The notes under the pieces are model-generated. The model was not told the DNA's origin. It did no database searches and worked only from the letters and a program-made list of their open reading frames with translations. Of a stretch of 39,405 bases of DNA, positions 5,071-10,565 are shown piece after piece. The first letter of the stretch is position 1, and each line of letters opens with the position of its first letter. The DNA comes from a virus. The DNA is taken from IMG/VR virus record IMGVR_UViG_3300042291_000198, positions 1 through 39,405 of that record; one strand, written 5' to 3'. The translations under genes were made by a program, and so were the position numbers.

Positions 5071-5346
5071 ATGGCAGCCAAAAAGAAAACCACCCCAGCA
5101 TGGACAAGAGCCGAAGGCAAAAACCCAGCAGGCGGACTCAACGCCAAAGGACGGGCATCCTACAAAGCACAAACAGGTGGAACACTAAAGCCACCCGTGT
5201 CAGCCAAACAAGCAGCCAAATCACCCAAAGCAGCAGCACGACGAGACTCCTTCTGCGCCAGAATGGGCGCATCCAAAGGACCACTAAAAGACACCAAAGG
5301 ACGCCCCACCCGCAAAGCCCTCGCTTTGCGTAAGTGGGACTGCTAA
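5071..5346 (+). CDS. DUF6321-like small basic protein
   Basis: This 91-aa protein begins MAAKKKTTPAW, has the segment GKNPAGGLNAKGRASY, and ends KGRPTRKALALRKWDC after SFCARMGASKGPLKD. This conserved pattern is widespread in marine and freshwater phages, where it is annotated as DUF6321 or left hypothetical; its function is unknown. The very basic charge suggests nucleic acid binding. The start at 5071 has TAGGACAG upstream; a longer start at 4996 overlaps the previous gene and adds unlike residues. It lies just before the tRNA. Confidence 0.8.
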   Translation: MAAKKKTTPAWTRAEGKNPAGGLNAKGRASYKAQTGGTLKPPVSAKQAAKSPKAAARRDSFCARMGASKGPLKDTKGRPTRKALALRKWDC

Positions 5347-5356
5347 CAAGACACCT

Positions 5357-5431
5357 TCTCCTCTAGCATAACGGCAGTGCAACGGACTGTTAATCCGTCA
5401 AGTCTTGGTTCAATCCCAAGGGGGAGAGCCA
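5357..5431 (+). tRNA. tRNA-Asn (anticodon GTT), CCA encoded
   Basis: The acceptor TCTCCTC (5357-5363) pairs with GGGGAGA (5421-5427), with one G-T pair. The D arm is GCA/TGC. The anticodon stem ACGGA/TCCGT encloses CTGTTAA with anticodon GTT. The T arm is CTTGG-TTCAATC-CCAAG. The discriminator G is followed by an encoded CCA (5429-5431). All arms are complete. It is the only tRNA I find, and the candidate giant ncRNA begins directly after it. Confidence 0.93.
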
Positions 5432-5479
5432 ACCTAGGGTATCAAACCCATACGCCATATAGGTAGCATGGACATTCAT

Positions 5480-6407
5480 CCACCCCCCTATTGCAAGAAG
5501 GGTGCCCCCCTCTGTAGGTACCCCTAGTCCCAAAAATAGACGCCCTCGGAATTGGTTCTATATTACTTATACACGAGTGGGGGCGCACCCCCCCGTGCCT
5601 CCCCCCCATGCGAGGCTAGACCATGATGGTCAATGATTATAACTGTTCGCTATTGTACCTAGCGCCCCTATTGCTGGCTATAATGGTGAGCAATGTGCAC
5701 ATAATGCGTGCATGATGGAGGCATGTTCAGGTCATGCGGGTATGCGTCATGCACACAGTTCTGATGTGCGATACGGTGCGCATTATGCGGTGGGTATTGC
5801 GTGGCTATGGGCGACGATTCTCGTCGTGTTGGGGCGCATGTAGGCGAGGAAATGAAAAAAAATAAAAAAAATCTTTCCTATATGCCATAAGGGTTTGCGG
5901 ATGTTTCGGTAGTTAGTTTCGTTATGAGTCGTAGTAATTCGGAATTGATGCCCTTACTGTATTGGTTGTTCGGCACTACTTTCGTGGTGTCGTTCGCCAC
6001 TAGTCACGGGATGCCTAGTGGTGCCGTGTTGTGGTGCTATCGGGATGATGCACTGCCACGGCGCTTAGTACAGCGATGCATGGCTCATGGTCATGGCTGA
6101 GGTGCTGAGGTTGGCGTCATAATGTCGTAACAGTTCACGAGAGTAGTGTGGATTCATGGTTACGGTGGCATGGCGTAAGTGATTAGGGACACGGTGGGCA
6201 CAATGGGTGCTGATGCCGTGTCTCATAATGGGTACCGTGTGGCGTGAAGATAAGCCTCACGGTATGTGCCATTCTTGCGTGGTAATCGCAGATGTAGCAT
6301 GGACATAATGTTCATGTCGTAGCATCCACAATTACCGTCCACACCCTAGCGGGTTCGTCACGGTGCAATTCCGTGGTGTGGTTCCAACACTCTAGCAATT
6401 CCGCTAG
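5480..6407 (+). ncRNA. Candidate giant structured ncRNA (GOLLD/ROOL-like size and setting)
   Basis: The 1 kb between the tRNA and the gene at 6432 has no credible reading frame but a near-continuous chain of stems. Those seen by eye are 5481-5485/5500-5504; 5572-5575/5594-5597 around GGGGG/CCCCC; 5597-5601/5612-5616; 5619-5623/5627-5631; 5670-5674/5690-5694; a 12-bp stem 5700-5711/5776-5787 enclosing hairpins at 5721-5737 and 5751-5769; 5812-5817/5821-5826; 5888-5893/5951-5956; 5971-5979/5984-5992; 5997-6003/6015-6021; 6021-6028/6057-6064; 6126-6131/6159-6164; 6186-6194/6216-6224; 6233-6239/6258-6264; 6281-6286/6331-6336 enclosing 6302-6318; 6339-6345/6375-6381; and 6392-6396/6403-6407. GOLLD and ROOL are known phage-associated RNAs of this size, often next to tRNAs. 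Membership is my inference; a novel class or a structured origin remains possible. Ends and strand are approximate. Confidence 0.55.
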
Positions 6408-6431
6408 TCGTTGATTCATAAGGAGAATATT

Positions 6432-6764
6432 ATGAAAATTACAGACTTGTCACCACTTGTGACACCATTCGCCAAGGGCAAGACCCGTAAGGCATCATCA
6501 TGGACTATCGTGGACAGTGTGGACGATATGGGCGTGGTTCGTGCCTTGTTTCATTACACCACTCTCATGGCTGAGTATGTGCATAATGATGATGACGGCT
6601 CATGGTGGCTAGGTGTTGTGTCTGTTGGCCATGGCTCAGTGAGTGACCAGAAGGCTATGAATCAGTTACTGGCTCAGCATGGCTCAGACTTGCGCTTCAA
6701 GCGTGACGGTGGCAACCCACGCTATGTGAACACCATCACTGGCGCTACGGTGTCCACTCGCTAG
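6432..6764 (+). CDS. Hypothetical 110-aa protein upstream of the MoxR-like gene
   Basis: I do not recognise a family. The start at 6432 follows AAGGAG at ideal spacing; a longer start at 6411 lacks a ribosome binding site. The sequence is a small alpha/beta protein with a Trp pair (DGSWWLGVVSVGHGS), a likely helix (DQKAMNQLLAQHGSDL) and a C-terminal beta strand region. Its leader AGGAGAATATTATG is repeated exactly at the VWA-like gene (8149), so the two may be translated at matched rates. It is the first gene after the candidate ncRNA and probably belongs with the following two. Confidence 0.75.
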   Translation: MKITDLSPLVTPFAKGKTRKASSWTIVDSVDDMGVVRALFHYTTLMAEYVHNDDDGSWWLGVVSVGHGSVSDQKAMNQLLAQHGSDLRFKRDGGNPRYVNTITGATVSTR

Positions 6765-6782: not shown

Positions 6783-6829
6783 GTCCTTATCCCTACTATT
6801 ACTCTTATCTATTTACGGAGGTAAATAAA

Positions 6830-8122
6830 ATGGCTAACAAAATGCCAATCGTCCTATCCATTGACTACGCCACGGAGCGTGTCACCTACCATGAGTTCGG
6901 GTCAACCCGTGAACGGACTGACCGATTCAGTTTCCTATCCAAAATGGGGCAAATTGCAGCACTAAATTATAGTGGCTTCAAGTTCACTGGCATGCCAGCG
7001 ATGCGCTGGTCGCTTGCTGAATTGCTTCAAGCGTGGAATTCACAGTGTGCCAAACTTTATGGCTCACCTACCCCAACACCAAAGGATGTACCCATCGTGG
7101 CTACAACACCCAAACCCGTACCATCAACACCCAAGGCACCTGCCACTGGCATAGATGCGGTACTGCGTGACATCGTCACGGAAGTTCTGGATGGTTATAA
7201 TCCTGCCCCAGATACTGAGGCAATCGGTGCAATCGTCAATGACGCCATGGCTCCTGCCCTTGCGTCATTCGCTGATGTGACAGAATCGCTAGGCGTCCTC
7301 ACCGATACCGTGGCAAGATTACAGCCCAAAATTACCCATATCCACATTCCTAATCATGAGATAAAGATTATGGATGGGGTACAACATCACATGTTCCCCA
7401 AGGTATTGGCGAACATCAGTGATGGCACACCTACCTATCTTGTAGGTGAGGCAGGGACAGGAAAGTCACACATCGCAGAGCAAGTGTCCAAGGCGCTAGG
7501 TGTGGCGTTCTCGTCTAAGTCATGCAGTAGCCAATCTACGGAATCTTCGCTACTTGGTTATATGTCTGCCACTGGCGATTATGTCACTACGGAATTCCGC
7601 AAGCGTTTTGAGTTGGGTGGCGTGTTCCTACTGGATGAGGTGGACAACGGTAACCCGAATGTCCTCACAGTGCTCAACAGTGCGCTCAGTAACTCGTTCA
7701 TGGCGTTCCCTGATGGCATGGTCAAGCGCCATGATGCCTTTGTGCTTATCGCTACCGCCAACACCTTTGGTCATGGCGCTAACGCTAAGTATGTGGGGCG
7801 TAACCCATTGGATGAGGCTTTCCTGAATCGCTTCGCTAACCTCACCATCACATACGATGAGAACATTGAACAGGCGATGTTGGATGCAGTAGGGCTTGAC
7901 GCTTCAATGTCCGCCAAATGGCTCAACATTGTACGAGTAGCCCGTAAGAATGTGTCCACCTATGGTCTGCATGTCGTGGTGTCACCTCGTGCCACGGTGT
8001 ACGGTGCCAAGATGCTCCGCCATGACGGTGTCTATAATCTCGGTGAGGTTGTTGAGGCAACCATCACCAAGGGCGCAACCCCTGAGGCTTGTGAGAAAAT
8101 TCTCATGGGCTTGTCACTGTAA
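6830..8122 (+). CDS. MoxR-like AAA+ ATPase
   Basis: This 430-aa protein has a variable N-terminal region (1-165, with a Pro/Thr-rich linker at 79-105) and a complete AAA+ module. The Walker A is GEAGTGKSH (206-214), the Walker B VFLLDEVDN (265-273), sensor 1 VLIATANTFG (about 305-314), and the arginine finger region is LDEAFLNRF (R334). This matches the MoxR/dynein-related AAA_5 type, which remodels or inserts cofactors into protein complexes together with VWA-domain partners. The next gene encodes a VWA-like protein, so the pair is probably one machine. Its target in phage infection is unknown. It has the strongest ribosome binding site in the region. Confidence 0.88.
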   Translation: MANKMPIVLSIDYATERVTYHEFGSTRERTDRFSFLSKMGQIAALNYSGFKFTGMPAMRWSLAELLQAWNSQCAKLYGSPTPTPKDVPIVATTPKPVPSTPKAPATGIDAVLRDIVTEVLDGYNPAPDTEAIGAIVNDAMAPALASFADVTESLGVLTDTVARLQPKITHIHIPNHEIKIMDGVQHHMFPKVLANISDGTPTYLVGEAGTGKSHIAEQVSKALGVAFSSKSCSSQSTESSLLGYMSATGDYVTTEFRKRFELGGVFLLDEVDNGNPNVLTVLNSALSNSFMAFPDGMVKRHDAFVLIATANTFGHGANAKYVGRNPLDEAFLNRFANLTITYDENIEQAMLDAVGLDASMSAKWLNIVRVARKNVSTYGLHVVVSPRATVYGAKMLRHDGVYNLGEVVEATITKGATPEACEKILMGLSL

Positions 8123-8148: not shown

Positions 8149-9003
8149 ATGCAAATTATAAATAACATCCCGAAACATCATTATGAGGTGTTCGGCTCAC
8201 TTGGCGAGTTCGCTAAGTACGCCATGGCTAATGAGGCACCTAAGTCGTCTAACAAGAAGGAAACCTTTGACGATGGTGTGTCATGGCAGGGTGACACCAA
8301 GACGCTCAGCGAGGCGTGTGATGTAGCCCGTAATGGTTATGGCGCTATCCGTAGCGATGTGGACAGCATCCTTGACAAGGTGACCGAACGCCTAGACATG
8401 AAGTTCAGCGAACATTATGTGACCGAGTACGCCACAAGCGGCTCATCGGTGGACATGGGGCGTTTCGTCACTGGCGAGCCTGAGTGTATGCTTGAGTTCC
8501 TCCCTGAATCATCGTCAACCATGGGGCGTGTTGTAAAAATAATCGTTGGAGGTACAGCATCGGCAAGCATATTGGCGTCAGACATTATAGCCCGTGGCGT
8601 TGCTGTGGTTGCACTGCTTGAGACTATCCACAAAATGGGTGTGGGTGTTGAGTTGTGGTGGGAATCATGCATTGAAGGCAACGACAGCAAGGCATATTCT
8701 ACGGTGGTCAAATTGCATGACAGCAATGACCACCTTGACATTGACAGCGTAATGTTCTCAATGGCTCATCCTGCGATGCTACGCCGATTGACATTCTCGG
8801 TGCAGGAACAATCAGCCACTGCCAGCGAGCAACGGGCTACTAGTGTCGGCAGTGGTTATGGCTACCCACACGACATGGCGTACACAAAAATTCAGGATTA
8901 TGATGTGGTTGTAGAAAAACTGCAGGATGGTCGTGGCGACATTGTGAAAGACCCGTTCGCTTGGGTGCTCAGCACTGTTCAGGGATTGGGGTTGGCAGAA
9001 TGA
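8149..9003 (+). CDS. VWA-like partner of the MoxR ATPase (DUF7192-like)
   Basis: The 284-aa product has an N-terminal helical part and then GRVVKIIVGGTASAS, IIARGVAVVALLETIHKMG and VEL (residues 126-169). This strand-loop-helix order resembles a von Willebrand A-like domain. The usual DxSxS metal site is replaced by GGTASAS, so metal binding may be lost. From memory this pattern fits DUF7192 proteins that accompany MoxR-like ATPases in actinophages. It starts 26 bases after the ATPase gene behind AGGAG. A joint role in remodelling a host or phage complex is inference. Confidence 0.65.
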   Translation: MQIINNIPKHHYEVFGSLGEFAKYAMANEAPKSSNKKETFDDGVSWQGDTKTLSEACDVARNGYGAIRSDVDSILDKVTERLDMKFSEHYVTEYATSGSSVDMGRFVTGEPECMLEFLPESSSTMGRVVKIIVGGTASASILASDIIARGVAVVALLETIHKMGVGVELWWESCIEGNDSKAYSTVVKLHDSNDHLDIDSVMFSMAHPAMLRRLTFSVQEQSATASEQRATSVGSGYGYPHDMAYTKIQDYDVVVEKLQDGRGDIVKDPFAWVLSTVQGLGLAE

Positions 9004-10296: not shown

Positions 10297-10550
10297 TGGA
10301 CGAGTACCGTTATGAAGCGCCGATACCACACATAGTGTCTGTCGGTGTGTGTTGGTTTGTGCTAACATTATTCTTCACATCATGTGTTGCTATGGAGTTC
10401 TTCAACAAGTCAAATTGGTCAATGAATACAGGCTCTTTGGGGTCTTTGTTTCTTACATTTATAATTCTGGTGGGTTCTACCAGATTGCTATTCGCAAGTG
10501 TGAAATACACTTACAAGTCTATGTTGGCACAAGCCAACAAGAAAAAATAA
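10296..10550 (+). CDS. Two-pass membrane protein, 84 aa
   Basis: The start at 10296 is coupled to the previous stop (TGATG). Two hydrophobic helices are clear: about residues 12-33 (IVSVGVCWFVLTLFFTSCV) and 48-68 (SLFLTFIILVGSTRLLFAS). A short polar loop lies between them and a basic tail ends in NKKK. This predicts a small inner-membrane protein with both ends in the cytoplasm. It lies in the early cluster, so superinfection exclusion or host membrane change is more likely than lysis, but this is inference. Confidence 0.75.
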   Translation: MDEYRYEAPIPHIVSVGVCWFVLTLFFTSCVAMEFFNKSNWSMNTGSLGSLFLTFIILVGSTRLLFASVKYTYKSMLAQANKKK

Positions 10551-10565
10551 CTGGAGGTTATTGTA

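Follow-up and report, generated by a model that had tools for sequence, protein, structure and literature searches.

Evidence for a new family of large structured RNAs encoded upstream of an AAA ATPase gene in phages

A noncoding stretch of about 870 nt in a phage genome encodes what is almost certainly a member of a new family of structured RNAs. The RNA lies on the plus strand at 5541–6407 of the window, by which we mean the whole 39,405 bases of an IMG/VR virus record, and it was identified through homology to about 70 contigs and covariation among the homologues, with no Rfam match to the RNA. Taken together, the findings are probably best explained by a large phage RNA that acts in trans, similar in kind to GOLLD and ROOL but forming a class of its own; its role is one that we infer.

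The window carries a P22-like portal, a terminase and a DnaB-like helicase together with many small genes, and the nearest named relative of the phage is MW202803.1, an uncultured podovirus from Manatee Spring whose terminase is 50% identical. The habitat is probably aquatic, as guessed in the preliminary description of this DNA and as suggested by the spring-water source of this sole named relative. A tRNA-Asn (GUU) at 5357–5431 on the plus strand, called by ARAGORN and by Rfam (RF00005, 58.5 bits), stands immediately 5′ of the RNA in the window's clade. It is 80–85% identical to the tRNA-Asn of Streptomyces phages Annadreamy, Faust and Limpid, its nearest named relatives, a likeness that may weakly suggest that the host is actinobacterial. 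A scan of host contigs returned AAA relatives only, in Runella, Spirosoma and one archaeon. Directly downstream of the RNA follows a 110-aa ORF (6432–6764, plus strand), assigned to no family and with a 71% identical relative in L002; it starts with ATG at 6432 and has the Shine-Dalgarno sequence AAGGAG at 6420. Next comes a gene for an AAA_5 ATPase of the CobS/MoxR-like type (6830–8122, plus strand; Pfam PF07728, 5e-17; PHROG 249), a protein labelled 'porphyrin biosynthesis' in other annotations. The block of RNA and AAA gene is flanked by DUF6321 and DUF7192 proteins (window 5071–5346 and 8149–9003).

The preliminary description had pointed to about 1 kb free of genes directly after the tRNA, and this was borne out. 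Between the tRNA-Asn, which ends at 5431, and the 110-aa gene there is no ORF of at least 60 aa (5432–6410), and the longest ORF on either strand of 5432–6431 has 58 aa, where shuffled sequences average 96 aa. The gap of L004, the nearest relative, is 85% identical and differs from that of the window by single-base indels among other changes; ORF lengths and these indels mark 5541–6407 as noncoding. Folding energy gave z scores of -4.4 on the plus and -7.1 on the minus strand against 20 shuffles, and of -2.5 and -1.9, respectively, under a Markov null in which a coding window reaches -2.7. Thermodynamics alone is thus moderately unusual and not decisive, and the strong evidence is comparative. 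A C-rich leader separates the tRNA from the structured core (5432–5540, plus strand), recognized from the sequence and 89–97% identical to L004 in 60-nt bins. Because the consensus fold of the window and L004 covers only the last bases of this leader, the structured part was set at about 5541–6407; the leader is possibly part of the precursor. A sigma-70 scan revealed no convincing promoter of the RNA's own.

Relatives were fetched through the downstream AAA ATPase gene, and nearly all close ones have an ORF-poor gap of 0.8–1.3 kb in the same place. A pattern search with the signature GYRCCCCCCCRTGCYYCCC returned 66 stretches in viral contigs, which together with the earlier loci gave 45 non-redundant segments, roughly 35 of them family members. 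Counting the loci of one contig once, about 70 IMG/VR contigs carry the RNA, in about 35 non-redundant sequences that fall into several clades, with an RNA length of about 850–900 nt. Profiles of the clades match about 100 loci, always in the same place, and gave zero matches in shuffled sequences. With nhmmer, the clade B profile finds window positions 5529–6102 at an E-value of 2e-23. Profiles built without the signature link the clades to one another: the window's clade A to B (1e-22), B to L108 (2e-43), B to H (5e-18), F to the H member L142 (1e-9) and F to G (2e-37). Two more scans, with exact patterns tailored to the clade of the window, yielded no clear new close relative. Of the 79 loci that contain both the RNA and the AAA gene, all 79 have the gene at most 2.5 kb downstream in the same orientation; this count leaves out the other 22 loci, where the available sequence ends before the AAA gene. 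Homologues of the ATPase also exist without the RNA; in MW202803.1 the gene sits at the corresponding place, the RNA is absent and the unannotated gaps hold ORFs. The tRNA-adjacent setting stressed in the preliminary description applies to the window and does not generalize: some clades have a tRNA-Asn or tRNA-Lys ahead of the RNA and others have none, so the tRNA neighbor is no defining feature of the family.

The proposal of a giant structured RNA is upheld by covariation in the homologues together with the absence of coding. A column-by-column covariation analysis of all pairs in 12 sequences found two significant pairs, both canonical, and had little power; for this reason a helix-level statistic, the second one tried, was adopted, which considers every possible 4-bp helix against a null that replays the substitutions on the tree in 40 simulations. 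This tree-based test found significant helices in three clades of related phages. Clade G (12 sequences) has 11 distinct helices at E<=0.2, all of which reach E<=0.05 and nine E<=0.025. Clade F (six sequences) and clade B (five sequences) each have five helices at E<=0.2, in both cases including two without an equally good null window. One helix was found in clade H, and two at E 0.1 in the pair of window and L004. The changes are illustrated by a stem that reads GGAC/GUCC, GUGC/GCAC, GACA/UGUU, GGAA/UUCC or GUCC/GGAC in different members. An independent RNAalifold run gave clade G a consensus of 163 pairs, and in 59 of them both sides have changed while pairing is kept. Covariation-supported structure thus extends over hundreds of nucleotides. 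The share of G-U among pair cells is 12–17% on the plus strand vs 4–8% on the minus strand in every clade, an asymmetry that places the RNA on the plus strand.

For the window itself, the hairpin density seen in the letters proved real, with 33 helices of at least 4 bp between 5541 and 6428 in the RNAalifold consensus with L004. This fold contains 22 double-compensated pairs, concentrated at 6123–6167, 6232–6265 and 6281–6336, which are not independent support because the fold was derived from both sequences. When L004 alone was folded, 14 double compensations were counted vs 3.0+-1.7 expected (maximum 8 in 2000 shuffles), and folding the window alone gave 7 vs the same 3.0+-1.7. With only two close sequences available, support for the helices of the window itself comes from a single pairwise comparison together with homology. 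Near the 5′ end, a GGGGG/CCCCC hairpin with the C-rich signature GYRCCCCCCCRTGCYYCCC (5579–5601, plus strand) recurs in the alignments of nearly all clades. A long-range helix of 10 bp with one compatible change is predicted by the fold with L004 to join the core to the 3′ end (5826–5835/6381–6390, plus strand). The hairpin at 6031–6056 (plus strand) carries the motif GUGCUAUCGGGAUGAUGC, conserved where clades A and B are aligned with related sequences, and its core CGGGAUG is common to 8 of 8 aligned sequences. Further along the plus strand of the same two-sequence fold, the helices 6123–6131/6159–6167 and 6132–6139/6147–6154 contain three double-compensated pairs each, and the hairpins 6232–6243/6254–6265 and 6281–6295/6322–6336 contain four each; within the first of the two helices, the 4-bp stretch 6126–6129/6161–6164 scores E 0.1 when the tree-based test is applied to the two sequences.

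The 3′ end of the RNA holds a tRNA-like module (6339–6381, plus strand), made of a closing stem 6339–6344/6376–6381 and a T-arm at 6359–6375 (CACGG-UGCAAUU-CCGUG). In the fold with L004 a long-range pairing to 5897–5902 is a competing alternative to the closing stem. The module is followed by the hairpin CUAGC-AAUUCC-GCUAG (6392–6407, plus strand), seen in the sequence and in the same fold. In most clades a hairpin lies immediately ahead of the downstream gene; it has a stem of 4–8 bp with a G-C closing pair and a 7-nt loop U[U/G]C[A/G]AUU, position 6 of the loop being rarely another base. The T-stem is stacked on a second helix that encloses one or two further arms, and in clade G RNAalifold draws the module as a four-way junction with a 7-bp closing stem. 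Stems differ between clades and vary in step, whereas the loop is near-constant. A descriptor of the T-arm had 57 matches on the plus strand, about ten of them true tRNAs, vs 11 on the minus strand and 2–5 in shuffles; the clades of L013 and L016/L018 are without the motif. In its T-loop, G-C closing pair and stacked helix the module resembles the acceptor/T-arm half of a tRNA, but it is called neither as tRNA nor as tmRNA by ARAGORN or Rfam, has no anticodon and no clear CCA end, and its loop often reads UGC instead of UUC. A candidate pseudoknot of a UAG linker with CUAY after the module found no support, with mean energies of -3.9 kcal/mol for own and -3.5 kcal/mol for cross combinations (permutation p 0.15).

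Several other small elements were observed around these genes. Clade G has a second, different T-arm copy directly before the AAA gene (L042 3865–3916, L041 3864–3915, L045 3871–3921, L046 3870–3920). In other phages where the AAA gene is also present, a compact tRNA-like minihelix lies between genes (L079 4132–4175, L080 5880–5923); it reads AGTCTAG-AATGGTTCAAG-CGGAGG-TTCGATT-CCTCCG-CTAGACT-CTAG, followed by eight T in L079, and has no Rfam match. A Shine-Dalgarno sequence sits in or beside a small hairpin loop (UAUUUACGGAGGUAAAUA, AAUAACUGGAGGUUAUU) at 6809–6829 and 10545–10565 of the window and at gene starts of L004, L042 and L020; such a hairpin precedes the AAA gene and one other, not most genes. 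Two leader elements of about 100 nt and about 80% identity precede two consecutive genes in L013 (3480–3600 and 3875–4003), which suggests duplication. The 5′ end of the clade G RNA contains a conserved CUACCUCC (A3 columns 24–29, for example L042 about 2619–2624) that is complementary to the downstream Shine-Dalgarno sequence, resembles the 16S anti-Shine-Dalgarno and is absent from the window's clade.

The preliminary description had left the choice between GOLLD or ROOL and a new class, and the latter branch is the one that stands, because the GOLLD, ROOL, OLE and HEARO models are unmatched in the window and the relatives scanned. Searches with Rfam 15 (4227 families) at gathering and at permissive thresholds turned up nothing but tRNA and chance-level hits in the window and the relatives; for the window, the tRNA stood alone even when the E cutoff was relaxed to 1. 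With permissive filters, the GOLLD and ROOL models stayed unmatched both in the window (E cutoff 5) and in fifteen relatives (E cutoff 3). We found no description of the RNA family in the literature searched, where coverage of subscription papers and bioRxiv preprints was limited. In kind, the closest RNAs are GOLLD and ROOL. GOLLD, found according to Rfam in Lactobacillales, lake and phage sequences, is likewise phage-encoded, longer than 800 nt, elaborately structured, often located beside tRNA genes and without a protein product. The window RNA is also phage-encoded, longer than 800 nt and near a tRNA gene, although the tRNA is absent in other clades, and the new family differs from GOLLD in having no covariance-model match. 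ROOL is also a large RNA of phages and prophages, of function not known and near tRNA islands; the new family is without a match to its model as well, and its members exceed in length the 659-nt ROOL of PMC12286853. A highly diverged GOLLD or ROOL missed by the Rfam models would have the similar size, the phage origin and the tRNA neighbor of some clades in its favor, but it is very improbable given that, even with permissive filters, neither model matches any of several clades. Being Rfam-negative and closest in kind to GOLLD and ROOL, the family is therefore of a known kind and in no described family testable here. GOLLD assembles as a 14-mer RNA nanocage. Both GOLLD and ROOL are RNA-only nanocages by cryo-EM (PMC12286853). 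Comparable in size are lnc001 and lnc002 of phage K and a transcript of about 800 nt in ICP1, the latter likened by description only; these are abundant transcripts of 0.6–1.2 kb from ORF-less gaps, and lnc002 adjoins tRNA genes (PMC9241854, PMC7567579). A link to the phage K RNA through the AAA gene was rejected: the lnc002 region is unmatched by the clade profiles, and the annotation of the surrounding 12 kb lists no AAA gene.

Other explanations concern the level at which the region acts. It could be a giant cis-regulatory leader, the 5′ UTR of an operon of the 110-aa gene and the AAA ATPase that, for example, presents or hides a ribosome-binding site. We keep this, the main rival, as a fairly unlikely reading because of the fixed AAA neighbor on the same strand, within 2.5 kb at all 79 loci, the extra T-arm copy that clade G has immediately ahead of the AAA gene, and the Shine-Dalgarno sequences in hairpin loops (CUGGAGG) before downstream genes in several clades; the duplicated leader element in L013 points the same way. 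Against it, in the window the 110-aa ORF stands between the RNA and the AAA gene, the Shine-Dalgarno sequence of the first gene there (AAGGAG, 6420) lies outside any such hairpin, and conserved gene order may simply be a property of such small phages; the leaders known to us are also far smaller than about 870 nt. The intervening ORF and the existence of AAA genes without the RNA lead us to lean towards action in trans rather than in cis. Some element acting as DNA, for instance a replication origin or a packaging region with hairpins, would fit a noncoding, hairpin-rich region near the divergent start of the rightward genes, but the G-U strand asymmetry and the one-sided T-arm motif suggest selection on an RNA strand, and helices span hundreds of nucleotides, so that this account is scarcely credible. 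As for degenerate or very short coding genes, small ORFs arise by chance, yet the longest one is below the shuffles, and single-base indels and compensatory changes reduce this explanation to a negligible one.

Under the preferred reading of a large RNA acting in trans, the RNA would be transcribed with the rightward operon and, in the window's clade, as part of the tRNA-Asn precursor. It may then fold into one compact body in which long-range helices hold the 5′ core and the 3′ end, and act as a stable RNA or RNP particle, after the pattern of GOLLD and ROOL. The T-arm module might serve as a cap for the 3′ end, help to mature it or mediate docking through its T-loop; RNase P and tRNA 3′-processing enzymes recognize a T-arm stacked on a closing helix, which is why capping or maturation is proposed, and a part in processing or docking is offered as a tentative suggestion. 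More speculatively, and unlikely in its full form, the RNA could be a self-contained RNA or RNP machine in infection, its tRNA-mimicking 3′ domain recruiting tRNA-processing enzymes or the translation apparatus, with the AAA ATPase as a partner. To our knowledge, very few large structured RNAs have been described in bacteria and phages, and we know of no function for GOLLD or ROOL. The family adds a giant phage RNA with natural covariation data, a recognizable tRNA-like end and a constant protein neighbor, features that are concrete handles for structural work, perhaps on oligomerization, and for function.
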